This document shows, piece by piece, positions 10,501-35,500 of a stretch of DNA of 64,000 nt (position 1 is its first letter; the number at the start of each line of letters is the position of its first letter). Location: assembly GCA_963281155.1 (NCBI GenBank), contig CAUJLY010000002.1:5704001-5768000 (forward strand), in the 5' to 3' direction. Both the position numbers and the translations under genes were made by a program. The DNA comes from Rhabditophanes sp. KR3021 (Eukaryota; Nematoda; Chromadorea; Rhabditida; Alloionematidae). Under the pieces are notes generated by a model that was given only the letters and a program-made list of their open reading frames with translations, was not told the DNA's origin and searched no databases.

Positions 10501-13500
10501 TTTTTCTTTTGTTCTACTAGTTGGTCGAATTTGTTTCGTTGGAGTTTGTATAAGTAGACGTCAATTTCTGCTAGATTTTGGGGCAGTTTCATTCCATAAA
10601 CAAACCATTGTCCATTCACGGAATTAATTTCTAAACCTAGGTAGGAAGATTCTCTGAGATCGTGTTGTGGATTATACAAAGCCCTTCCTAAATCAGTAAT
10701 TTTACCAGGCATTAAAATGGTGGAAGTATTTGAGACTAGAGGATTTTCAAAGCGAACACTCTTGTCTCCTGACAACATAGCCATTTTTATGAGATTCATT
10801 CTTTGAGGAAAATGATTGAATAGGAAAATTCGCTTTGATACAACCTAAAAATACAATAAATTACCATTTCTAATTAAATTAAATTTACCATGCCCGGAAA
10901 AACCTTTCCGAAGTTGATTGATTTAGTTGGTGGCATTTTCAACATTCCTCCAGGACTGATTGAAAACTTGATAGGAAATTCAAATGTTTGATACTTCGTT
11001 TTGATTTTCAGCAAATTGGCTTTCATATCCATGTCATTTAATGAAGAGTAGTGAGTTGTATTGAGAGTTATTTTGAAGAAAGTAAACCCATTTGCATTAA
11101 TAGTCATTTCCTTGAATTCAGATTCTAAGGGAGGACTGTGATATTCTGGCAAAACATTATAATGCTTTAAAGTCGAATTTCGACCAGTATAAGAAATCTT
11201 GAGATGAGAATCTAGTGGAAGAGTAAATTCTTCAACCGGCACAGGAACATTTCCTTTGTTTTTAAACCAGAAATGAATAGATCTTTCATCATTAGGGGAT
11301 AACGTACCAAAATCAAATACAGATGGATCCAAGGCATGTACTCCAACGTCAACATGTCCATCGAAAAACTTAATAGGTATCTCAAAGCTAGTCAAGTTGG
11401 TATAGACTAAAACCATAGACTCCGTAATACTTTCAAATTTCTTCAAATACTTCAACTTCACTACTCCTTCTTTGGCACCGGCAGCTAGATGAATTAGTGG
11501 TTTTATCAACTCAGCATGAAAATATTCCTTGTGGTTAACGTAAATTTGTACTTTTCTGATTGAAATTCCAAAGGGTAAGGCATTGATCAAATAAATAAGT
11601 TTTTCCTTTGGGGGCTCATCGGTGTTGTGGAAAGACACTGTTTCTACGCTATGGTAAAGTTCTCTAAAATGATCGAATTAATGTATCTTCAAAAAGACTT
11701 TCTTATTTGTGCTTGAAACATTTGACTACCGAATTTGGCGAATAGTCATTTGTCTGTAAATTATTTTTTGGTAAAGATGTTTCAAAGCTCTAATTTTTAA
11801 CATGCTTGGGTAAAAAAATAGTTGAACAAATTTCTTCTTATATCCAACTAATAAACCCGAATGATGAAGACTAAACTGTTGCTCAAACAAATTAATACAT
11901 CAAATACCTATCATATCGTTTCTATGACATCCTCTTTTTATTATTCGCCATATGACTATTCAAGAAGTACAAAAAAACTTTCAATCTTGACGAATAAAGT
12001 GAAAACATGTTTTTGATTGTTCTCAGGTAAATTACGTATAAAAGAGTATCTGCAACTGGTAAGCGCATCAAACAATGAAAACATATATTATTCTACTAAC
12101 TATCCTAGCCATCTTCTTGATGGTTGGGCAGAGCGAAGCTTGGAGAGGAGGTTATGGTGGTTATGGAGGATGGGGTCGTGGTGGTTATGGAGGATGGGGT
12201 CGTGGTGGCTATGGAGGATGGGGCCGTGGTTATGGTGGCTATGGTGGTTATGGCATGGGCATGTGGCCATACGGTAAGCTAGATATCAATGCTTCATTGA
12301 CTCTAATTAAATCTTTCAGGTGGATATGGTTGGGGCAAATAAATGTGCCACGTTCTATTTTAAACAATAATTCTTTTATAAATACTTAATAAACCATGCA
12401 TGATATGTGTTGTTTTGAACTTTAATTTAAATCTTTTACTTGTTAAATCACATGTTATTTATAAGTCAAAGACCTAATTTATTACATGTATGATATATGT
12501 AATTAGTTTAAATAATGTTCGCTATTTGTCTAAAGGATATATGTACATACAATACCTTTTATATCAGTCAAAAGCTTTGGTATGGAATTTATTTTTTAAT
12601 TAACTTTAAAAATCTATATATACTAAGTATTTATCTTAAAAACATGGTCAAAATCCAATAAAAATGGCCAAACAATGATTTCATTTTCAAGTAACTATGT
12701 ATACATCTGTGTCATGCTTTTGATATAAAGAACACTCAAATCATTAAATGATTCATTACAATTTCAGTAAATTTAAAAAGTGTGATTTTTTGAGAAGTAC
12801 CTAGTTCGCAATAAATGTTAACAATTATTCACAATCACCTAGTATGGTCCCTACTCCATAATTTCTTTCCTAATGAATTTGTGTTATTTAGGCTCTCTAG
12901 TCTTTATTCTACATATAGATACATTTAGAACATAATAAATTTACAAAAAGAACCCTCAATGCGTGCATATTAAAAGTCAAAAACATTCAAATGAACAAAT
13001 TATTATTAATCATTAGTTTACTAACTATATTAGAATATTTATGCCTAATTTACTTCTTGTTTGATAACATCTGAATAAGATGTGTACTTACATATGTTTT
13101 TTCAAAGTGCATATAATTTAAACAACGAAATTGTTAAATATCATGCTAAATAATGATATTCTTCCTTAATTGTTTATTTTGGGGCGTAACTGCTTTATAT
13201 ATTGGGCAACTACACAAAGAAAATGAGCATATGGATCAGTTCTTACAAGAAAATATAGAAAAAGACAGTCAACTTATTTAAATTATCTGTTATATTTTTT
13301 CGTTAGCTTCATGAGCATGGTAACTTGTCTAAACTAATGTACTTATCAAAAGAATCAGTTAACTGTTAAAAGCGTGCCTTCGAATACGGGTCCCAGTTTT
13401 GTTACAATTGTATAATGAATAAATCGAAACATCTCCTGAGAACGCTTTTGTAAATACATACATATTTTCTAGCATTATATGCATTTACATATTAACAACT

Positions 13501-16500
13501 AAGATGTGTTTACATGCCAACATTAATACCAAAATAAATGATACAGGCTTTATGATTATCATTAAAGTAACATAATCATTTGTCTTCTTTTTTAAGATGT
13601 TGCATTGCCTTCTAATCATTAGGAGGTATTAACCTGATCTATAAATTTGTATTTAATTTGAGTGATTTTTATCCATTCTCTAAAGCTATGAAGCCCAACT
13701 TAAAACGGAAAATGAATATTCTCCAAATGTATTGCAAAGTGGAAGGTGGCAGACGATGATTTGGTAAGCATTATTTTGACTGAAAATAACATTTCTCCTC
13801 TAATTAAATCATTCAGGTGGATGGGCAAAATAATTATAAGCTGATTCGAAAATTATCATCTAATTGCATTTAATATGATTAATATCTTTTGTATCTTTTA
13901 TCCATCCTTAAATAAATCCGCTTATAACTTAACATATGTTCTTTAAAAGTCACAAAAAAGTTACCGAAGACAATAACATAAAAAGTATTGAAGGCAATAC
14001 GATAGTGCATTGCTTATATTTCAAATTTCAATAATAAGATGAAAACAATTCAGCATGTGCTTTGAATTGGAAAAAACGTGTGATTCAACTTGCTATTAAT
14101 TAAAAATATTATTTTTGCAAATGATGTACTTTAGTAAACAGTCCAAATTTTTGTTAGCCAAATTGAGTTGGTTTCCGAACATTAGTAGGGTATTTAAATA
14201 AAGCAAAATGAGAATGAAGTCAAAGTATTTAAGTTATGAAACTTTTAGGTGTTTTTTTATGTTCATTGGTTCTTTCTACATTTGCCCAGATTGGTAACTT
14301 TGGAAATGAGCGAGGACGATCTATAGGTAATCGAGGATTTCAAGGAGGAAATATGGGAGTTAGGAGCTTTCAAAGAAGCTCTATGAATTTTAATAATCGA
14401 GGCAGGAATATGGGAGTCAACAGTTTTCAAGGAACTTCTGTAAATTTCAATAATCGCCGAAATATGGGCGTCAACAGATACCGAGGAAGATCAATGAACT
14501 TCAATAATCGTAATATGGGAGTCAACAGATTCCAAGGAAGATCCATGCAATTCAATAATCGCAATATGGGAGTCAACAGATACCGAGGAAGATCCATGAA
14601 TTCTAATAGCTTTGGAGTAAACCGGTTCCAAGGCTCATCCATGGGTGTAAATAGCTTTGGAAGATCGATGAGTGGCAATCAAAGATCTTTCCAAGGTTAA
14701 ATCACATCATTGTATTGTAATTTGTAACCACTTATTAATAAATCGACTTCCTTCAATCTTATTTACCATAAACATAACTGTTTAAAACAAGATTTTAAGT
14801 AAATTTTATTATTTAAAATGGCGTGGAACCTGTAATAAAACATAAATTGTCTCGTTTGAAAAACAATTTTGTTTGTATTTAAACGGCCATGAATTGAGAG
14901 AAATATCATCTTAAAAATGAAAAGCTTTGTTTTATTATTCGTGTTCATTGCCTTATTAATTCATATTGAAGGATGGGGAGAATGGAATAATGATTGCAAT
15001 TGCAATTCGAATAGCGGAGGCTTCAACAACGGCGGTAATAACGGAGGATTCAATAATGGGAACGACGGATGGACTCCAGGAAACAACGGCGGCGACAACA
15101 GACCTTACAGATACAGTTATACCTACAGAAACAACGACAATGGGCCTCCAACTTATAAATACCAATATACTTACACCAATCCCAATAAATAATATTATTT
15201 GTTAATAGCAATCAAATGATATCATCTTTTGTAGCCATTCATTTAATAAAAGCACTTGCGTATTTCTTATTTACTGATCGGAAACAAAAAACTCAACAAA
15301 AGCAGGTAATTAATTTGATTTCAAGCATAAGATAGATGTTTTGAATATCAAAAGGGCCTGTTCACCAAATTTTCTGTTTTTAGAATTGCAATTTTTATAG
15401 TATTTAATCGGTAAAAGTTAACAGAAAGCATCATTTTTTGGAATGAAAGCTTGGCTTTTGATATTTCTCCTGATCGCCTTGCTAGCGTTGACTGAAGCAT
15501 GGTGGGGGAATCAAGGATTTTATGGAGATTGTGGATGTGGAGGATATAATGGGTCAGTTTAGGTTTGAATGATTTACAAATCTTTTTAGTGGCGGATATA
15601 ATTACTACAACGGAGGAGGATTTGATGGCGGTTATGGGGGATATGGAGGTGGTTATGGCGGTGGTTGGAGAAGACCTTGGTGGCGAAGACCTTGGTGGAG
15701 GAGAAGACACCACTGGAGACCATGGGGCTATGGTGGTGATGGATGGTAGAAATCCTGTTACATACTATTTTCAACAACTATAAACTTTTTATACTAAATA
15801 AAGCGTGATATATGTGTTTTGAACTTTAATTAAAATTACTCAACAAATCATTTACTTGTTAAATTATATATTATTTGTAAATAATTTGCAGCATGCGTTG
15901 GTAAAGGCTGCTTATTTGGTAAATAAACTCTAATTTATATGACAGATAGAACTTCTAATGATTGTAAATAATTGTACAAAAGAAGAAGCAATTTTAAAAT
16001 TGTATAAAAGTAGAAACAATTTTAAAGTTGTTTATTGAAGAGCAAAATGAAATTATTTAACCTTCTTCTTATATTTATTTTTCTGTTGTGCATCATGACC
16101 ACTATAATTGAAGCCAGACGAGGAAGAGGTGGTGGTGCAAGAAGAGGTGCTTTTAATATTTATTGCGGATTTTTTAATTTTAAATAATAGGTGGCGGTGG
16201 CGGTAGAGGTAAAACTGGGGTTACTTTTTGAATTAATTAAATTGACTAGGCGGAGGTAAATTCATTGTAATATTTCTTGATTGCGGGACTTTCCAGGTGG
16301 TGGAAGAAGAGGAGGTGGTAAATTCAATTTCAGAATTTATTAATTTTAATTAAGGCGGAGGTAAATTAAATTAAGGCATTTGTTAATTCTTGAACATTCT
16401 AGGTGGAAGAAGAGGTGGAGGCCGAGGCGGTAAATAAATTTCGCTAAATGTCTAAATTCCTAATTTAGGTGGTCGTGGTGGTAAATAAATCTTCTATATA

Positions 16501-19500
16501 TCTATTTTATTTCTCTAGGGGGCGGACGAGGTAGATTTATAAATTTCAGAATTGATTCATTTTAATTAAGGCGGAGGTAAATTGATAAATTTATTAAAAA
16601 ATAATAATTTAATTAATAGGCGGACGAGGTGGTAAATAATTAAATTACAGAATTTACTAATTTTAATTAAGGCGGAGGTAGAATAAATTAGGGTATTTGT
16701 TAATTCTTGAACATTCTAGGTGGAAGAAGAGGTGGTGGCCGAGGTGGAGGTGGAGGCCGAGGTGGAGGTAGAGGCCGAGGTGGAGGTAGAGGCCGAGGTG
16801 GAGGTAGAGGCCGAGGTGGAGGTGGAGGCCGAGGTGGTAAATAAATTTCGTTAAATGTCTAAATTCCTAATTTAGGTGGTCGTGGTGGTAAATAAATCTT
16901 CTGTAGATCTATTTTATTTCTTTAGGGGGCGGACGAGGTAGATTTATCATTAATTATGAGACTAATTACAATTAATATAAGGTTGGGGTAATCAAGGTAA
17001 ATAATTTAATTGAAACCTCTTCAAATATGTTTAACTATAGGTGGATGGAATGGCAAGTAATTAATTTAGACCTCTTTTAATATATTTAAACTCCATTATA
17101 GGCGGATGGAACGGGGGAAACGGTAATAATTAATCGAAATTTTCTCAAATATATTAAAACTATAGGTGGATGGGGTGGCGGCCGTAGAGGAGGTGGTAAA
17201 TTATTTTAGTTTGTTGTCTTATCAGTTTTTTAGGAAATTGGGGCAATCGTGGAGGTAAATTTATACTAAATCATTAACTTACTAATCTCTCAGGCAATTG
17301 GGGCAATCGTGGAGGTAAATTTATACTAAATCATTAACTTACTAATCTTTCAGGCAATTGGGGTAACAATGGAGGTAAATTTAATTAACTTAATTCTTAA
17401 GCTTATTAATCTTTTTTACAGGCTGGGGAAATAACGGAGGTAAATTTTATTATTTTTTTGCTTATAAACCTTTTAAGGCAACTGGGGAAATAATGGTAAA
17501 TTCAAACATTTCCTATTAATTTATGTTTTTAGGTTTATTCGGAGGCTTTCAACCATACCCTGTTTATTGTTATCTGTTCCCATGTAATAACTTTGGTTAA
17601 CTTCCAAAAACATGACTATTCGCTAAACAACTTTGGACACAATGTGCTCCTCATGATCAAAAACTATTCAATGTTGATAATTGTAAATTATTTGGTCATT
17701 TCCAAATATCCTTAATCCATAAACGCAAATAAACTTTTGCACATGAATTTCAACAAATCTTAATTAATGTTACTTTATATCTCGCAAAAATCATAGATCA
17801 TCCAAGTTAATTTATACCGTTTTGGGGAAATGAACTTTTTTGGTTCAAACAACTGCCTTCATAAATGTTTAAATAACAAATATAGTTTTTTAATGATCTC
17901 CAGAAACTCTTACAAATAAGTATAAAAAGAGGCCAAAAAACTTAATCGTCTATTTATGAAAAGATCACGATGAAGTTATTTAGTAAGCTTCTTATCGTTC
18001 TTCTTGTACTATTTATGATTGCTGGCTTTGCTGAAGCAAGAAGGGGTGGAGGTAATTTTGAGTCTTAGTTATTAAATTTAATTAACAGGAGGTCGAGGCG
18101 GTGGAGGTAAATTCATCATTGTAAACCATAAAATTTAATTTTTATCATTAGGTGGTAGAAGAGGTGGCGGCGGAGGTAATTGGATATCAAACAAATTTAT
18201 TAATTCTACTTTAGGAGGCTGGGGCAGACGTGGTGGAGGCGGTGGTTGGGGAAGACGTGGTGGAGGTGGTGGTTGGGGAAGACGTGGTGGAGGTGGTGGT
18301 TGGGGAAGACGTGGTTGGGGAGGACGAGGCGGCGGTGGTTGGGGAAGACGAGGTGGTGGTAAAATATCTTGATAAATTCATTTCTAATTCATTTATGCTT
18401 AGGTTGGGGAGGATGGAATCGGGGCTATGGCGGATGGAACCGGGGCTATGGCGGATGGAACCGGGGTTATGGCGGATGGAATCAGGGCTACGGCGGATGG
18501 AATAATGGATGGGGTATTACAAAACAATAATCATTTCTTAATAATGTTTCATTTTTTTACTAGGTTAGGAGGAGGATATGGCAATTCTATTCCATGTATT
18601 TTTTATTGCTTCAATAATTGGGGTTAACTTTGCAAAATAAGCTTTCTTATTATATGTATTTCAACTTCCGCAAACACAATTATTCGTTAAACAACATTAA
18701 ACAACAATTGACTTATGATCTAAGCCCATCTAATTATATCATTTGCATGATGCCATTTAATATGTTTATTGAAAACTGTATTCCGTTGATTTACAATAAA
18801 GTATCTTATCCAATATTTATTGAATTTTATTTTAAACTTCTCAAAATCCACAGATCATTAAGACAAATTGTTTTCTTAACTAAACTCCTTGTTTTCAAAA
18901 CAACTAAATTAAAAAAACAACAAGTCGGTAAACTATCATATGACGATCTAATGAATCTTTGACATTAAATAAATAACTATAAAAGAAGCGAACAAAACTA
19001 AAACTTAAATTATGAATAGATCAGAATGAATTTGTTGCTAAAGCATCTCATTATATTTATTTTTGTACTATGCATGCTAGCTGCTACTGCTGAAGCAAGG
19101 CATGGCGGAGGTTTGTTTCTGAATTCGTGATCTAATATACGTATTCTCAGGAGGCCGTGGCGGAGGTTTGTTTCTGAATTCGTGATCTAATATATGTATT
19201 CTCAGGAGGCCGTGGCGGAGGTTTGTTTCTGAATTCGTAATCTAATATATGCATTCTTAGGAGGCCGTGGCGGAGGTTTGTTTCTTAATTCGTGATCTAA
19301 TTTTGTTTCATTTTAATAGGAAATTGGGGCGGTGGAGGCATGTTGAAAATTATTTCATAATTTATCATTTATTCTAGGATGGGGCGGAAATCGAGGAGGC
19401 GGCTGGGGTGGGAATCGAGGAGGTGGCTGGGGTGGGAATCGAGGAGGTGGCTGGGGCGGAAATCGAGGTAACACCTTAATTCATAAATTCATACTGATTT

Positions 19501-22317
19501 TCAGGATGGGGTAATTTGTAACTTATGTTATTAAATAATAACTTAATAGGTGGTGGATGGAATAATGGCTATGGTGGAGGATGGAATAATGGCTATGGCG
19601 GAGGATGGAATAATGGCTATGGCGGAGGATGGAATAATGGCTATGGCGGAGGGTGGGGTTGGCCATGCTGGTTCAATTGTTACAATTATTGGGGTTGAAA
19701 TAAACTTTCATAAGCTTATTTATATTTATAACCTTCTTATATTTATAACTTCTTTAAAGTAGTATTCGTTAAACACATGTCACTTCCCGATACATACATT
19801 AGCACAACTTTGACACAAGACATCATCTCTCGTGATTCGAAGGCTATTTGATTAATTAAAAGTGTTTGGCGAAAATATTTTTAGCCTTTTCATGATACCT
19901 ATATAATTTGGAAAAGGTTAAGGTTAGCGTCACTTTACAATTATCATGAAAGTGTTTTGTTTAATATTTGCCTTTGCTCTTTTATTTGCCTTAACTATTG
20001 CTGAAGATGGTGTATATCAGGAAAAGAGTAGATCCGTTGGAAGAGCTAAGAGATGGGGAGGGTATGATGGATATGGGAGTGGAATGTATGGTGGAGGCTA
20101 TCCAGGAATGTACGGCGGGTATGGAGGTTATCCAGGAATGTATGGAGGCGGTGGATATCCAGGCATGTATGGTGGATATTATCCTAGACGTCGTTTCCGT
20201 CACTTCTACGGAGGCTCACCTTATGGTGGATATGGAGGCGGCTACCCATATGGAGGTGGTTATGGCGGTGGTTATCCATATGGAGGTGGATTCGGTGGAG
20301 TTGGAGTCAATGTTGGGCTAAACCTAGGAGTTGGAGTATTCGGATAATTTTTAAATCACTGCCTTAATTTGTATATTGTTTTATGTTTTGTGTTTTATAC
20401 CTTTTTAAATAACGATTTCTCATGTGAGACGCACTAATAAAGATTTTATCAAACAGGTATGTTAATGTGAATTTGAACTTGTCCTTTACAAGATGTTTAG
20501 TATTTTCAAACTTACCCGGTATAGATTCTACCTATATATGGTACACTGACGTTATGCAAACCTCCCTTAGTTAAAAGAATAATCTTCCCACTAACGAAGG
20601 TCTCACCACTATTTGGTTCTTTATAGTTTCCTGTGACATAATCATTGTATGCTACTGAATTCATACTAATAGCAGCAACCGGCACAGTACTCCCAGGTTT
20701 ATTGTCTAGAGATGGTGAAATAGATCTTTGTGAGTTTGATGGATAACCGATGTGCATTGAATGTTTTTTGTCATTCGGTTCATAGTAGACGCTCTAACTC
20801 AATAAGTTATGAAATACAATTTAATCAAATTAAACATACCTCTACATCGACACTTTTGGCTAGTGTACTAAAAACATTCAAAATCTTCTCAATTTTGCTC
20901 TTCAACCCCGCTTTGATGTATCCGAAATCAAAAACATCGGTTGTTGCATAAAGCGCCTTCTTTTCCTGAAAACATATTAACGTTAGTATTAATATAATAA
21001 GTAATTATTAATTTTAATTGTATAATGCTAAATTATTTTTTAACTAAAACAAATAATATTATTATGTCCATGTTTAAAATCAACTAGATACATTTTAATT
21101 TCCTACTATATAATTCTTAAATTCCGTAAATTAGTGTCTTAGTAAATTCCTAATGTAACATTTTTTGTAAAGTTTCCAAATGCCTCGCATGGGCGCAGGA
21201 AAAGATATCAAATATTTTTTTGATGTTCAAGGTGCTACGAAAGAAAAGATGAAGTTGCAAACTAATCTTTCAGGAGTTCTTAGATGCCAATCAAGGAGTT
21301 GATTTGAGAAAACCCCCACAAGTCCCGAATTATTATTTTTAATCTATATTTTGACCCCATTTAATTTAGCAAAATCCACATATAACCTGCCTCGACATTA
21401 ATATTCACCGGTAAAATTAGTCTATTTGGAACGCTTTCGGCGAAGCTTTCGCTAAAGCGATCTTTTAAGACTCCTTTTTTATTTCTTTCAATTAATGTTG
21501 CTTTGAGAGTAATGAATGCTAGAGTATTTTGTTCTTTTGACCCTAGGACCTTAGCCATTAATAATGTTTTTGTTTGTAGCGGTTCAATTTCCCATGAATC
21601 AGGGGCAATGTCCTGAATTATTCTGCCATTTGGTAATTCTAATTGAAGGTCATTTGAACTGGAAATTATTTCTGTTACTTTTAATATTTTGGAATGAGGG
21701 TTGTGGAGATTAATCGGCGCTGTAAAAGTACCATTCATAGGAAGTATGGCCATAATATTAGAACGAAGGCGGTAAGGACTTCGTAGGCCTTCTCCCTTGA
21801 CGCCAAGTTTAATAATTCCTTTATTGGATTTGACTGTAATAATGCCTTCAATTAGTTTTTCTGACCTAGCTAAGAAATATACATCAAATGTGGTTGCCTC
21901 GTTCGGTTTCAATTCGGTCTTCTTGGGGAAGCTGGCGTGGAAATGGGAAGAACTTCCGGCAATCTTTTCGAATTTGAATATTTTTTCTGTAGGATTAAAT
22001 ATGTTGACAGTCATTTTATTAGGAACTCCTATGAAAGACTCCCCGAAATTCAGATCACGTGGATTTATATTCAAACTATATTCTTCGTTTAAATCATTAA
22101 CGGAAGCCCAGACAGCTTCGTCATCCACTAAATAGTAAATTTCGCTGCCTGTTTGGATGAAGGCATGGGAAATGGCATCATCCACGTTTTCACTTAATTC
22201 GGATGGAGATTTTTGTGTAATTTCTTTGGTCAAAACCAAATTTGTGTAGGCACATAATAGTAGTAGCGATGCAATAAATAAGCGCTTCAAGGTATTTAAT
22301 ATAATGTTCCGTAACAT
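7507..22317 (-). CDS. TMEM131: TMEM131 orthologue (seven exons, with a +1 frameshift and an 8.85-kb gene-bearing intron)
   Basis: Exons: 22317-21391, 20965-20840, 20793-20516, 11663-10889, 10844-10048, 9914-9338, 9211-7507, giving about 1,727 aa (human about 1,880). All junctions are frame-consistent. A signal peptide (MLRNII...) is followed by the N-terminal domain with NPRDLNFGESFIGVPN, FHASFPKK, FDVYFLAR and SPYRLRSN, all strongly TMEM131-like. Ig/ASH-like lumenal domains, a membrane segment near ALPRPPFEGFMYW...FCLICVIACSYLEG and a long polar cytosolic tail follow. In other animals TMEM131 recruits secretory cargo such as collagen at the ER. Intron 1 appears to use a GC donor (GAG|GCAGGT). 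Exon 10844-10048 needs one base skipped near 10364. The start lies 13 nt after an acceptor. Confidence 0.93.
12037..12044 (+). promoter_or_regulatory. TATA box of glycine-rich gene 1
   Basis: TATAAAAG, 38 nt before the ATG at 12075. No splice acceptor lies next to the start codon. Confidence 0.75.
12075..12342 (+). CDS. Secreted glycine-rich YGGWGRG peptide (cluster gene 1)
   Basis: Two exons, 12075-12273 and 12320-12342, with a 46-nt phase-1 intron; 73 aa. Signal peptide MKTYIILLTILAIFLMVGQSEA, then tandem WGRGGYGG units and the end GGYGWGK. The composition resembles nematode YGGWG antimicrobial peptides and silk or cuticle glycine-rich proteins; resemblance alone does not decide. A polyadenylation-type aataaa follows at about 12387. 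The 3' flank is related to that of cluster gene 4 (15443-15749). Reading through the intron gives a longer but less family-like tail, so I chose the spliced form. Confidence 0.85.
12343..14190. other. AT-rich spacer inside the intron
   Basis: No intact gene is visible in this 1.8 kb. It contains the relic described at 13640-13833 and otherwise low-complexity AT-rich sequence. Confidence 0.6.
13640..13833 (+). pseudogene. Relic glycine-rich gene (decayed cluster member)
   Basis: A TATAAATT box at 13640 lies 48 nt before an ATG (13688), the same spacing as in the live genes. The reading frame hits TGA after about 23 codons and no longer encodes a signal peptide. A donor at 13764 (ttg|gtaagc) and an acceptor at 13816 bound a 53-nt intron whose end (ctaattaaatcattcag) nearly matches the intron end of cluster gene 1. 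The last exon would read GGWAK-stop, like GGYGWGK-stop of gene 1. Confidence 0.6.
14191..14198 (+). promoter_or_regulatory. TATA-like box of cluster gene 2
   Basis: TATTTAAA, 45 nt before the ATG at 14236. Confidence 0.6.
14236..14700 (+). CDS. Secreted Asn/Gly/Arg-rich repeat protein (cluster gene 2)
   Basis: Intronless, 154 aa. Signal peptide MKLLGVFLCSLVLSTFAQ, then about seven copies of a 14-18-residue repeat, roughly N-M-G-V-N-(R/S)-(F/Y)-(Q/R)-G-(R/S)-S-M-N-F-N-N-R. It is basic and low complexity with no cysteine in the mature part. It lacks the poly-Gly blocks of its neighbours but shares orientation, TATA spacing and secretion. No family recognised; an extracellular matrix, silk-like or antimicrobial role is possible. 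A polyadenylation-type attaataaa is at about 14735. Confidence 0.85.
   Translation: MKLLGVFLCSLVLSTFAQIGNFGNERGRSIGNRGFQGGNMGVRSFQRSSMNFNNRGRNMGVNSFQGTSVNFNNRRNMGVNRYRGRSMNFNNRNMGVNRFQGRSMQFNNRNMGVNRYRGRSMNSNSFGVNRFQGSSMGVNSFGRSMSGNQRSFQG
14876..14883 (+). promoter_or_regulatory. TATA-like box of cluster gene 3
   Basis: TATTTAAA, 41 nt before the ATG at 14917. Confidence 0.6.
14917..15192 (+). CDS. Secreted Asn/Gly/Tyr-rich small protein (cluster gene 3)
   Basis: Intronless, 91 aa. Signal peptide about residues 1-18 (MKSFVLLFVFIALLIHIEG), then WGEWNNDCNCN, GGFNNGGN-type repeats and a Tyr-rich C-terminal third with YRYSYTYR and YKYQYTYT motifs. The mature protein has two cysteines close together (CNC). 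Alternating Tyr/Lys/Arg and Asn/Gly runs are typical of structural secretions. No named family is recognised. Confidence 0.83.
   Translation: MKSFVLLFVFIALLIHIEGWGEWNNDCNCNSNSGGFNNGGNNGGFNNGNDGWTPGNNGGDNRPYRYSYTYRNNDNGPPTYKYQYTYTNPNK
15401..15408 (+). promoter_or_regulatory. TATA-like box of cluster gene 4
   Basis: TATTTAAT, 42 nt before the ATG at 15443. Confidence 0.5.
15443..15749 (+). CDS. Secreted Gly-rich protein with basic Trp-rich block (cluster gene 4)
   Basis: Exons 15443-15552 and 15590-15749 (37-nt phase-2 intron) give 89 aa. Signal peptide MKAWLLIFLLIALLALTEA, then WWGNQGFYGDCGCGGYN, GGY-GGG repeats, and a strikingly basic Trp-rich segment: three W-R-R units, two of them RRPWW, then RRHHWRPWG. 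Dense Arg/Trp with Gly is a common antimicrobial composition, so that function is plausible but unproven. Its second exon read in other frames gives spurious ORFs on both strands. The 3' flank (15794-15885) resembles that of cluster gene 1. Confidence 0.82.
16003..16010 (+). promoter_or_regulatory. TATA box of cluster gene 5
   Basis: TATAAAAG, 44 nt before the ATG at 16047. A near-perfect direct repeat of about 20 nt (core caattttaaaattgt) lies on both sides of it, at about 15987 and 16017. Confidence 0.75.
16047..17600 (+). CDS. Secreted Gly/Arg-rich protein assembled from 24 tiny exons (cluster gene 5)
   Basis: Proposed exons: 16047-16146, 16191-16208, 16250-16255, 16297-16317, 16355-16360, 16403-16429, 16469-16480, 16519-16530, 16571-16576, 16620-16631, 16672-16677, 16720-16836, 16876-16887, 16926-16937, 16982-16996, 17041-17052, 17102-17122, 17166-17195, 17234-17254, 17294-17314, 17354-17374, 17422-17439, 17478-17495, 17533-17600. 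All 23 introns are phase 1 and 37-49 nt; every internal exon is a multiple of 3 and four are only 6 nt (GCGGAG). Sum 612 nt, 203 aa: signal peptide ending IIEA, a GGR/GGG region, an NWGNRGG region, and the end PVYCYLFPCNNFG. One intron (17053) uses a GC donor. Any 6-nt cassette could be skipped without changing frame. Confidence 0.75.
17921..17928 (+). promoter_or_regulatory. TATA box of cluster gene 6
   Basis: TATAAAAA, 49 nt before the ATG at 17970. The spacer 17601-17920 shows no other feature. Confidence 0.7.
17970..18627 (+). CDS. Secreted Gly/Trp/Arg-rich protein, six exons (cluster gene 6)
   Basis: Exons 17970-18051, 18089-18106, 18152-18175, 18215-18358, 18403-18513 and 18569-18627, all phase 1, give 145 aa. 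The signal peptide MKLFSKLLIVLLVLFMIAG with a following FAEARRGGG is clearly homologous to cluster gene 5. Then come GGWGRRGGGG repeats, GGWNRGY repeats and the end GGGYGNSIPCIFYCFNNWG. The last acceptor must be 18568, because using the ag at 18563 would place TAG in frame. Paralogue of genes 5 and 7. Confidence 0.8.
18978..18985 (+). promoter_or_regulatory. TATA box of cluster gene 7
   Basis: TATAAAAG, 48 nt before the ATG at 19026. The spacer 18628-18977 contains an open + frame (to 18962) that looks like AT-rich noncoding sequence. Confidence 0.75.
19026..19698 (+). CDS. Secreted Gly/Asn/Trp-rich protein, eight exons (cluster gene 7)
   Basis: Exons 19026-19110, 19151-19165, 19206-19220, 19261-19275, 19320-19337, 19378-19467, 19505-19510 and 19550-19698; all introns are phase 1 and 37-44 nt; 130 aa. 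Signal peptide followed by EARHGGG, three identical GGRGG exons in a 55-nt exon-plus-intron tandem array, GGNRGGGWG repeats, a 6-nt exon (GATGGG), GGWNNGYG repeats and the end GWPCWFNCYNYWG. The intron at 19338 uses a GC donor (GGAG|GCATGT). The paired cysteines near the C-terminus match genes 5 and 6. Confidence 0.8.
19111..19275 (+). repeat. 55-nt exon-intron tandem repeat, three units
   Basis: Units start at 19111, 19166 and 19221. Each is a 40-nt intron (gtttgtttctgaattcgt...) plus a 15-nt exon (GAGGCCGTGGCGGAG). Exons are identical and introns differ at only a few bases, indicating recent duplication. Confidence 0.9.
19900..19907 (+). promoter_or_regulatory. TATA box of cluster gene 8
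   Basis: TATATAAT, 46 nt before the ATG at 19946. Confidence 0.6.
19946..20347 (+). CDS. Secreted Gly/Tyr-rich prepropeptide (cluster gene 8)
   Basis: Intronless, 133 aa. Signal peptide MKVFCLIFAFALLFALTIA, a short acidic/polar propeptide ending SVGRAKR (a dibasic, furin-like RxKR site), then WGGYDGYG and repeats of GGYPGMYGG, a basic RRRFRHFYGG patch, GGYPYGGGY repeats and a Val/Leu-Gly tail (GVNVGLNLGVGVFG). The predicted cleaved product is Gly/Tyr-rich. It differs from genes 5-7 in having no introns, no C-terminal cysteines and a propeptide. Confidence 0.85.
   Translation: MKVFCLIFAFALLFALTIAEDGVYQEKSRSVGRAKRWGGYDGYGSGMYGGGYPGMYGGYGGYPGMYGGGGYPGMYGGYYPRRRFRHFYGGSPYGGYGGGYPYGGGYGGGYPYGGGFGGVGVNVGLNLGVGVFG
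21095..21172 (+). repeat. Dispersed repeat, copy B (inverted relative to copy A at 7281-7348)
   Basis: Lies inside TMEM131 intron 1 (20966-21390). It shares about 41 consecutive bases with the reverse complement of copy A, then an extra 8 nt (gtcttagt) that partly duplicates the preceding ttagt, then further similarity ending attttttgtaaa. Confidence 0.85.
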
Positions 22318-32538: not shown

Positions 32539-35500
32539 TTTCTTAAAAAGGATTGCCTTTTAAATTAATAGTATATCTTTGTCGCAGGTTGTGGAGATTA
32601 AGATTCGGCGATACAGCTCAAAAAAGATAAAGACGTTTCGATTTCGTTTTGTTTAAAATAGTTTTTGATTCTCGAAAAATGTATGTCTTATTTAAACACA
32701 AATTTAACGTTGCCAAAAGTAACAGAAAATATAGATTCACTTGCCAAAAACAAATATTCAAAAGACACACTTTCCGGGGAATCAATGTAAACAAAAATAA
32801 TATATATCCAAAAACCAAATATTTATATTTTTGCCAGGTCGTCAAACAGATAAAGGTGACGATGGTGAGCTGTGGTTGGTAGCTAATTCTTTCTTTTACC
32901 TCAAGAAATGTTTATATTTTGATTTAATTGGTTCCAAGAGATTGATCAACAATCGCCTTAGGTGAATATGGAGAGGAAAATGGGTGTCTAAGCAAAAGTT
33001 ATGACGTCGTAAAGTTCAGGTAACAATAGGTAGGAATAATGTAAAATAAGTAAAAGTTAGATACTACAAGTCTAATATATTTTTAGCTATATATTAAAAT
33101 ATTAGGTTGAAAGTTAGGGTTTTGATGAATGATGGCATAAGCAATATAGAGAGATGTCGGTATGAGGTGATAGCCGTTTAAAATTAACGTTTAAAAGAAA
33201 TGTAGTTGTGTCGTAGGCTGCTGCAGGCGAATAATAATTTTTCGTTCAGTTGAATCTGAAATTTAAAACTTATTATATGAGAAACGATTGTATCAAATTT
33301 GACTTGAAGACGGCGTATTAGGACAACGGTTCATATTTACGATAAGACAATACTCCACAATTATAATATGTTTGCAGACAAAGTGACGGCAATTGTCGTT
33401 AATTTGGAATTGATACCTAACTTTTTTCAATCAAATTATTTAATTTATCACACGCCCATAAAGTATTTTCAATCAAAGATCGGCGTGATTCTCTCAAACA
33501 AGACTTATCAACAAAATTTAATAGTTTCATAGAAATTTACTTCTATCAAGCATCAAATATACCGTATAATTCTTTATAGTCGCCATGAAAACCGTCTCCA
33601 AAAAAGCTCCATCTTCTGTCACAAACTTTTCTTTTATGAACCTATTAAAAAGAGTTGGGAGTATAAAGATATCACATATATTTCATTTTGCACCAGGCAA
33701 GATAATAAAACTTTTATGGTTCATTAACATTTATTTGCAAGAGGGCGATTAACTACTACACGACTTAGAAAGCAATTTAATTACAAATAAATATTACATT
33801 CTAATGCAAACAGTTGTAGTTACTAATAGTAAGGTGGAGAAAGAGTTTAAAGTTCAAGTAAGCACAATAAGATAATATTATATTAATTTCAACTGATCTG
33901 CTACGCAACTATCTTATTACTAATTACAAAAAGCTTTACACTAAGTGGCACTAAATATTCCACATACATATTAGTATCCACCACTACTAAGATATTGACT
34001 GGGATATTGATGCAAGAGTGTCTAGTACGTCAAAAATATAAATAATTTATGTGATGAATGAGTAATAATGCAAATCAAAAAGTGATCCTTCATTATTATT
34101 ATCTCATTGCCTTTATTAACAAATATAAATACTGTTTGTGGGTGATTAAAAACAAATTAAACTGTTGTCACTAATTGCTGTTTCTAGCAATTTTGAACAA
34201 ATTTAATTGAAATATAATAGTAAAAAATAATTTTTGATCGAATAATTGTATTTTATGATACAATTTAGATAGTAGACTAATTAAAGCAAAAAATAAATGG
34301 GTTTGAAGATGTCAAAAAAGTGATACCACATAACATTTCATCATCTCTACAAACAAACGGTAACTGATCTCATATGATCCTCACAAATAATGAAAAAGAC
34401 ATGTTATCTCTTTGTCAATAAATAATTAAAGCTAACTTATAAAAGACCACAAAAGTTTTCTTCATTACTCGTTCTCTGAATTGTATACATGTATAATTAG
34501 ATTAGGTAAGATACAAGTTAATTATCATTACTTTTAAAACAGTCAAATAATTATTTTCACAAAAGGTGTAGATTTTAATTACTAAAAAATAGATATTACA
34601 TAATTTAAATAGGTATTGCATAAATTAAATAGATAGTACATAAATTAAATAGATATTACATAAATAAAATACATATTATATGAATAAAATACTTATTATA
34701 TAAATTAATTTGATATTATATAAATTAAATAGATATTACATAAACTTTAAGAACGAAATCACACAATTAAATTCGTACAAATGAGCAATTAGGTAAGGCG
34801 AATATGTGGGTGAATTGATGAAATTTAATTGAATTTTGCTTGGTACTATGAGTAAGTGGGATATATCAATGTCTAAGCTTTTTATAAACTTTAGACAAAA
34901 ATCACATAATTAGATATATGTTAATTAAATTAGGTAAACTTGATATCTTTCTGTACTGTATCATGTCACTTTTAAAACAATTCCAACTACAAAATTATTT
35001 TGACAAGCTTAATCAAGTTTAATCAACAGCTGAAATTAAAAATGAAGAAGATTAGTAGTTAATCAGTGTATAAATATTACATATACTTATGTTTAAGCAT
35101 ATAATCTTTAAGTGTGTTTACGTCCGCGCAGCTTTTATAAAAGCTAATGAAATTAACACATGACGATACCCTAAATATAATGCAATGGAGATGAACACAG
35201 TGTACTTATAAATCTTCAAATTATAATCAAAAATAGGGTTTTCTATAATCTGGTGTTGTATCAGCGAAGAATTAAGGCTAAAATCACGATGATGCAAATT
35301 ATACGTGTTAAATTGCATAAATTTAAATTAAATTAATGTTCAAGCAAATAAACAATATTAATTCGATTCTATTTTTTAGTTTTTCGATAGGGTCAGTAAG
35401 ATGTACACTTAGATAATGTGATATTGGACATATATTTCTGACATCGAAAGTAACGACTAAAAATTGAAAGGTGCGCAAAAGAACAATTAAAATAAATCAT

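Follow-up and report, generated by a model that had tools for sequence, protein, structure and literature searches.

How can 24 exons, four of them only 6 nucleotides (nt) long, be packed into a gene of 1.55 kb, and how many of them would enter the transcript? This question is raised by a gene predicted at position 16047 on the forward strand of a 64,000-nt stretch of Rhabditophanes sp. KR3021 DNA (the window), to which a first-pass annotation had drawn attention. Here we propose that this locus, the 16047 gene, is probably a genuine gene encoding a secreted, strongly basic, glycine-rich (Gly-rich) protein of antimicrobial or epidermal type, whose exon-intron modules were multiplied by duplication and whose exons are mostly included via intron definition.

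The anatomy of the 16047 gene was obtained with two parsers. The first was constrained to phase 1 from the ATG at 16047 to the TAA at 17600 and yields 24 exons with a sum of 612 nt. The second, fuller parser used genome-learned splice scores and composition weights set by hand, left the phase free and recovered identical exons, so the structure given by the first-pass annotation emerges from both. Exons 1 to 12 measure 100, 18, 6, 21, 6, 27, 12, 12, 6, 12, 6 and 117 nt, and exons 13 to 24 measure 12, 12, 15, 12, 21, 30, 21, 21, 21, 18, 18 and 68 nt. As the annotation had stated, the length of every internal exon (22/22) is a multiple of three, all 23 introns are 37-49 nt long and in phase 1, and the exons join into a single frame that runs stop-free through 23 junctions. 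The frame encodes 203 amino acids (aa). Exon 12 is the only internal exon longer than 30 nt (21/22 at or below that length). Retention would bring in an in-frame stop for 19 of the 23 introns. The GC content is 64% in the internal exons and 20% in the introns, and the intron density is ~38 per kb of coding sequence. The Cys-pair C-terminus that the annotation had described is present, and its signal peptide corresponds to a hydrophobic N-terminus that is signal-like by eye only.

Which of these properties is unusual for the genome? The genome searched comprises 44,845,725 bases in six contigs, with the window on contig C2; the Rhabditophanes diutinus KR3021 v2 assembly has been described as 44.8 Mb with 32.16% GC, with RNA-seq used in its gene prediction (PMC10676810), and R. 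diutinus transcriptomes cover adult, J2/J3, J2A and dauer stages (PMC7738172). Splice-site training drew on 105.5 kb outside the gene cluster that surrounds the locus, with 51 predicted genes and 55 introns. Predicted introns of the genome have a median length of 44 nt (64% at 36-50 nt, range 36-443 nt), and a predicted gene has about one. The 53 predicted introns used in the model are spread over the three phases (18/19/16) and end in TAG (39), CAG (10) or AAG (4). Intron size in the 16047 gene is therefore ordinary for this genome, and it is the intron number, 23 in 612 coding nt, that is unusual.

The structure was compared with chance expectation using splice scores alone, with GT-AG introns, stops forbidden and the frame of the scoring parses left aside. 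For the real locus, a limit of 34-52 nt on intron length gives 22 introns and a score of 82, and a limit of 34-130 nt gives 23 introns and a score of 82.6. Dinucleotide shuffling of the interior left a stop-free parse in 0/300 cases. A second null, in which letters were shuffled only inside each internal exon and each intron, so that the GC/AT mosaic survived and the two terminal exons stayed intact, gave a parse in 0/300 cases with introns of 34-52 nt and in 7/300 with introns up to 130 nt, the best of these scoring 12. The locus structure thus lies well beyond both shuffle nulls. With this splice-only scoring, three intronless Gly-rich neighbours yield 1, 0 and 0 introns, and with the fuller parser none, which indicates that the splice model does not invent introns in any Gly-rich DNA. 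In addition, AG-6nt-GT sites scoring at least 7.5 occur 3 times in 1650 nt of the gene (forward strand) vs 10 times in 224,892 nt of background (both strands), the copies in the gene being related by duplication and hence not independent.

The pattern is also concentrated at this locus. The chain GGTAAAT-intron-AGG-exon-GGTAAAT has 14 matches in the genome, 10 of them inside the 16047 gene, and what is unusual is this clustering in one gene rather than the total count. The corresponding GGTAAGT chain has 5 genome matches vs 12 for its control, with none on contig C2. These chain patterns are narrow and their control places are not listed, and they do not establish the absence of other micro-exon genes elsewhere. 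In a simple scan of 67 loci, the longest micro-intron chain is 8 in the 16047 gene and 1 or 2 in each of the 42 loci outside the window, a set that consists of pattern matches, loci with weak protein similarity and five sampled stretches, not the whole genome. One other chain match (L043) showed no Gly-rich frame by eye, and one weak protein match (L061) encodes an unrelated Gly/Pro/Gln-rich open reading frame. The 6-nt Gly-exon pattern WAGGNGGNGGTAA was rejected as a stand-alone marker, with 26 genome matches (3 in the gene) vs 70 in the reversed control. Chain clustering, shuffle nulls and junction analysis together uphold the initial description of a real-looking multi-micro-exon gene with one frame, unusual in this genome. 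No paper on micro-exons this dense in a nematode, or on the 16047 gene, was among the literature matches listed, in which subscription journals are thinly covered. The annotation's phrase "rare in animals" is fair, with the qualification that schistosome micro-exon genes also reach exons of 6 or 3 bp.

Table 1. Positions of the 16047 gene, its parts and its neighbours (a slash marks an exon-intron junction; log-odds are for inclusion vs skipping).
Feature	Position	Strand	Description	Basis
16047 gene	16047..17600	+	24 exons, 23 introns, 612-nt coding sequence, 203 aa	Two parsers and shuffle nulls
Exon 1	16047..16146	+	Hydrophobic, signal-peptide-like start; end ...EARRGRGGGARR(G)	Signal judged by eye
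Exon 3	16250..16255	+	6 nt, GCGGAG; log-odds +2.1; upstream acceptor weak	
Exon 5	16355..16360	+	6 nt, GCGGAG; log-odds +3.6	
Exon 9	16571..16576	+	6 nt, GCGGAG; log-odds +3.3	
Exon 11	16672..16677	+	6 nt, GCGGAG; log-odds +1.0; donor weak (GTAGAA)	
Exon 12	16720..16836	+	117 nt, sole internal exon above 30 nt; enlarged by 18-nt tandem repeats	
Intron 16	17053..17101	+	GC-AG, donor ATG/GCAAGT, 49 nt	
Exon 24	17533..17600	+	C-terminus with Cys pair, CYLFPCNNFG-stop	
Duplicated module A	16318..16530	+	Introns 4-7 with exons 5-8	Intron-pair identity
Duplicated module B	16632..16937	+	Introns 10-13 with exons 11-14; expansion within exon 12	
Exons 19-21 with introns 19-20	17234..17374	+	60-bp exon+intron tandem units (NWGNRGG)	
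Likely paralog g17970	17970..18627	+	145 aa from 6 exons, every intron in phase 1, end CIFYCFNNWG-stop	
Likely paralog g19026	19026..19698	+	8 exons, phase 1, 130 aa, end CWFNCYNYWG-stop	
Cluster genes	12075, 14236, 14917, 15443, 16047, 17970, 19026, 19946	same strand		

How did so many introns accumulate? Introns were compared in 253 pairs against a shuffle null, whose 99.9% level (74.4% identity) would be exceeded by ~0.25 pairs by chance. The introns of modules A and B match in order (4/10 0.85, 5/11 0.90, 6/12 0.97, 7/13 0.92), introns 19 and 20 fall within 85-97% identity, and the pairs 4/8, 8/10 and 15/17 reach 78-82%. A sibling above the null was found for 13 of the 23 introns, and most intron pairs are at null level. 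Pairs above the null indicate duplication of units in which an exon and an intron were copied together. The introns show no sign of being a dispersed element: a whole-gene DNA search, which skips common words, returned the gene itself and one 100-bp match of 72% on contig C3. The gene would have started as Gly-repeat coding DNA with a small number of phase-1 introns in place, and duplication of units that each combine an exon and an intron would have expanded it to the 24-exon form. The 16047 gene illustrates how introns can be multiplied as a by-product when repeats expand.

Are the exons included? All four 6-nt exons (4/4) read GCGGAG. In four aligned module copies AGGCGGAGGTA is invariant, and 27 of the 70 ungapped intron columns are invariant; at the intron rate, six invariant exon columns would arise with a probability of ~0.003, a figure that ignores the shared ancestry of the copies. 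This conservation is a lead, not proof, that the smallest exons may be used. Under the splice-site model, 20 of the 22 internal exons score better included than skipped. In Caenorhabditis elegans, microexons have been proposed to be too small for exon definition, PRP-40 aiding their inclusion via intron definition and very short flanking introns removing the need for PRP-40 (PMC8378409). In that study, a very short upstream intron removed the need for PRP-40 at an unc-13 microexon, and a short-intron swap downstream broke splicing even in the wild type, leaving the downstream side untested (PMC8378409). Very short introns speak for regular exon inclusion through intron definition (PMC8378409). 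Each intron of the 16047 gene, being close to the genome-standard size, would be recognised singly; exon length would then matter little, and most exons, including those of 6 nt, would be present in most transcripts. With 6-30 nt between most adjacent introns, splicing complexes probably could not assemble on them simultaneously, and removal would proceed one by one. Thus, we infer mostly constitutive inclusion with sequential intron removal. The gene offers a natural test of the limits of exon size and crowding with near-minimal introns, and a single short transcript would make it possible to measure intron definition, the order of splicing and the inclusion of micro-exons.

Several observations weigh against this proposal. 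The 16047 gene is a prediction read from DNA alone, and the splice model was trained on 53 ab initio introns, not cDNA. The annotation's statement that every splice site is consensus proved too strong: use of exon 16 (17041-17052) requires a GC-AG intron 16, and about a third of the introns carry a weak site. Eight introns have at least one such site, scoring within about the lowest 6% of the 53 predicted introns (donors of introns 1, 11 and 17; acceptors of introns 1, 2, 3, 14, 15 and 16). Without the GC-AG intron, keeping the Gly frame means skipping exon 16; a composition-weighted parse with GT-AG introns only and any phase leaves the frame where exon 12 begins, returns to it at exon 16 and loses the Gly reading between. 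Recent duplicate pairs differ by 6/99 substitutions in exons vs 12/195 in introns (Fisher p = 1), or by 2/78 vs 12/195 without exon pair 20/21 (p = 0.36), and this exon/intron divergence carries no signal of purifying selection. In that count, 27 nt of exon 6 were set by hand against the ends of exon 12, and for pairs 8/14 and 20/21 the exons were counted but not the introns. Furthermore, the reversed control of the GGTAAAT chain gave 17 matches, at places not listed; the 16047 gene has no match in Pfam or PDB; and whole-protein searches of the genome, with E limits of 1 and 10, made no link between the proteins of 17970 and 16047.

The weak sites accord with a rival explanation, in which the 6-nt exons, together with some weak ones of 12-15 nt, never enter the transcript, introns of ~85-105 nt span these remnants, and the gene has ~16-20 exons. 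Skipping would preserve the frame, and the GC-AG intron would be unnecessary if exon 16 were skipped. In vivo, skipping is frequent for exons shorter than 51 nt (PMC8378409). However, all four GCGGAG copies retain their six bases together with the flanking AG and GT, although the flanking intron has diverged, and the splice model favours including all four. We therefore regard the remnant explanation as doubtful.

Could the gene instead be combinatorial, with varying exon subsets giving many repeat-length variants of one secreted protein? The first-pass annotation had taken the symmetry of all internal exons to permit such splicing. Skipping one exon would produce a composite intron of 85-113 nt (198 nt for exon 12), inside the predicted range of the genome, so that in-frame exon skipping is possible on modelled intron lengths. 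The include-vs-skip score lies below zero for exons 2 (-0.1) and 17 (-0.5), near zero for exons 15 (+0.7) and 16 (+0.1), and is weak for exon 4 (+1.3) as well as exon 11. Alternatively spliced isoforms have been described for one family of schistosome micro-exon genes (PMC10399815). However, the symmetry has a simpler origin. A Gly codon is split after its first base at 23/23 junctions, of which 13 read AG/G and 10 read TG/G or CG/G. AG/G stands in phase 1 at all 41 of its sites in the 16047 coding sequence, the 13 junctions and 28 non-junction sites alike (28/28), at 29/32 sites in the three intronless Gly-rich neighbours and at 115/122 sites over eight neighbouring coding sequences. Because Gly codons put AG/G in phase 1, phase symmetry arises without combinatorial splicing, and because the phase is constant, exon lengths are divisible by three. 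We found no evidence that the symmetry serves combinatorial splicing, and phase symmetry as a sign of designed modularity is rejected, since Gly codons suffice; symmetric phase in a Gly-rich gene is by itself no evidence for alternative splicing. In addition, the short flanking introns favour constitutive inclusion (PMC8378409). We consider the combinatorial explanation unlikely.

A further, speculative reading, to which we give little weight, is that crowding of the micro-exons forces a set splicing order, in which local failures would drop Gly-Gly units in frame and generate a graded series of length and charge variants of one secreted defence protein. A degenerating, unexpressed Gly-rich copy with a left-over structure would fit the equal exon and intron substitution rates of the recent duplicates, but is very improbable, given that 612 nt are stop-free over 23 junctions, that the ATG, stop, signal-like start and Cys pair are intact, and that 4 of the 6 exon substitutions in the compared pairs are synonymous in alignments read by hand.

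If the 16047 locus is a real gene whose exons are mostly included, what would its product do? The mature protein consists of 57.8% Gly and contains 31 Arg+Lys and no acidic residue. With the gene's place in a run of secreted-looking neighbours and the behaviour of the C. elegans nlp-29 cluster (both described below), a defence or epidermal role is likely, and a structural role in the cuticle is possible. Vertebrate elastin, like the 16047 gene, has Gly-rich repeats and symmetric phase-1 cassette exons, but differs in its exons of tens of nt, long introns and documented alternative splicing. The exons and genes of spider silk proteins are far larger than those of the 16047 gene. The MaSp2 and flagelliform silk genes are clustered repeat genes that likewise have recurring exon-intron units with similar introns; within a silk gene the repetitive introns average 97.6% similarity, whereas most pairs in the 16047 gene are at null level, and for the silk genes alternative splicing has been raised only as something that might affect length (PMC9779670).

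Nematode GRSPs (glycine-rich secreted peptides, e.g. NLP-31) and the C. elegans nlp-29 cluster are also small, secreted, Gly-rich and encoded by clustered genes, and the available portions of these reports do not mention a micro-exon structure (PMC10506718, PMC2453101). In C. elegans, fungal infection induces the nlp-29 cluster and extra copies raise resistance (PMC2453101). The Gly content far exceeds the >17% of the mature protein that defines GRSPs, the N-terminus is hydrophobic as judged by eye alone, and the length passes the GRSP limit of 200 aa if all 24 exons are used, the likely paralogs being shorter (PMC10506718). The GRSP criteria also ask for a signal peptide and for a known C. 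elegans GRSP within the five best BLASTP hits. Schistosome MEGs (micro-exon genes) likewise encode secreted products from many tiny exons, up to 81 bp and mostly multiples of three, the smallest being given as 6 bp in the body of their description and as 3 bp in its abstract (PMC10526429). The 16047 gene has such exons, one internal exon, exon 12, exceeding 81 bp; its introns and total length are compact, whereas MEG introns reach ~5 kb (PMC10526429). Schistosomes belong to another phylum, and the comparison is one of architecture. Aphid bicycle genes have many micro-exons (~17 exons on average), nearly all the internal ones beginning with the second base of a codon (PMC9168663), a trait that the 16047 gene shares. 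They encode insect gall-effector proteins, another kind of product, and are likened here by architecture. Micro-exon genes and repeat genes with iterated introns are kinds already known, and the 16047 gene is a variant of these.

The two genes downstream, g17970 and g19026, are likely paralogs of the 16047 gene, as judged from their sequences. When the window is read in six frames, the C-terminal form C-x(3,4)-C-x(2,3)-[FW]-G-stop occurs three times: in the 16047 gene, in g17970 and in g19026. The 3' flanks of the 16047 and 17970 genes are 77% alike over 44 nt, and the N-terminus of g19026 matches that of 16047 at E = 0.018 with 55% identity. Introns common to the 16047 gene and the likely paralogs were not found (0/115 and 0/161 pairs above the null). 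g19026 contains a 6-nt exon candidate, GATGGG, at 19505-19510, and grew by a 55-bp exon+intron array; g17970 and exon 12 of the 16047 gene grew by within-exon repeats. The array (19103-19301) holds 3.6 tandem copies of a 15-nt exon plus 40-nt intron with the unusual donor GTTTGT. A possible second GC-AG intron of g19026 lies at 19338-19377 (donor GCATGT), with an alternative GT donor 6 bases upstream in the same phase.

A run of eight same-strand, small, Gly- or Asn-rich, secreted-looking genes occupies 12075-20347 and resembles the nlp-29-type defence clusters of C. elegans. The fuller parser finds one intron each in g12075 and g15443. The g12075 protein terminates in GGYGWGK, an ending that we take to be similar to C. 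elegans NLP peptides. By eye, 13688-13833 is a weak candidate for a decayed relative of the g12075 3' end; a local alignment is identical at 24/25 positions, over only 25 nt around the intron acceptor. At 14407-14608, an intronless Asn/Gly-rich secreted-looking gene contains ~51-bp coding repeats. Searches of Rfam and for tRNA gave no match for the window or gene as queried, and the SL1 RNA family was found neither in the window nor in 14 controls, which makes that search uninformative. Elsewhere in the window, neighbouring genes match Rad51, TMEM131L Ig-like, MATH and BTB, Vps52 and TBP in Pfam, in keeping with an animal genome, and an AT-rich 20-bp tandem repeat of 7.9 copies lies at 34587-34744.

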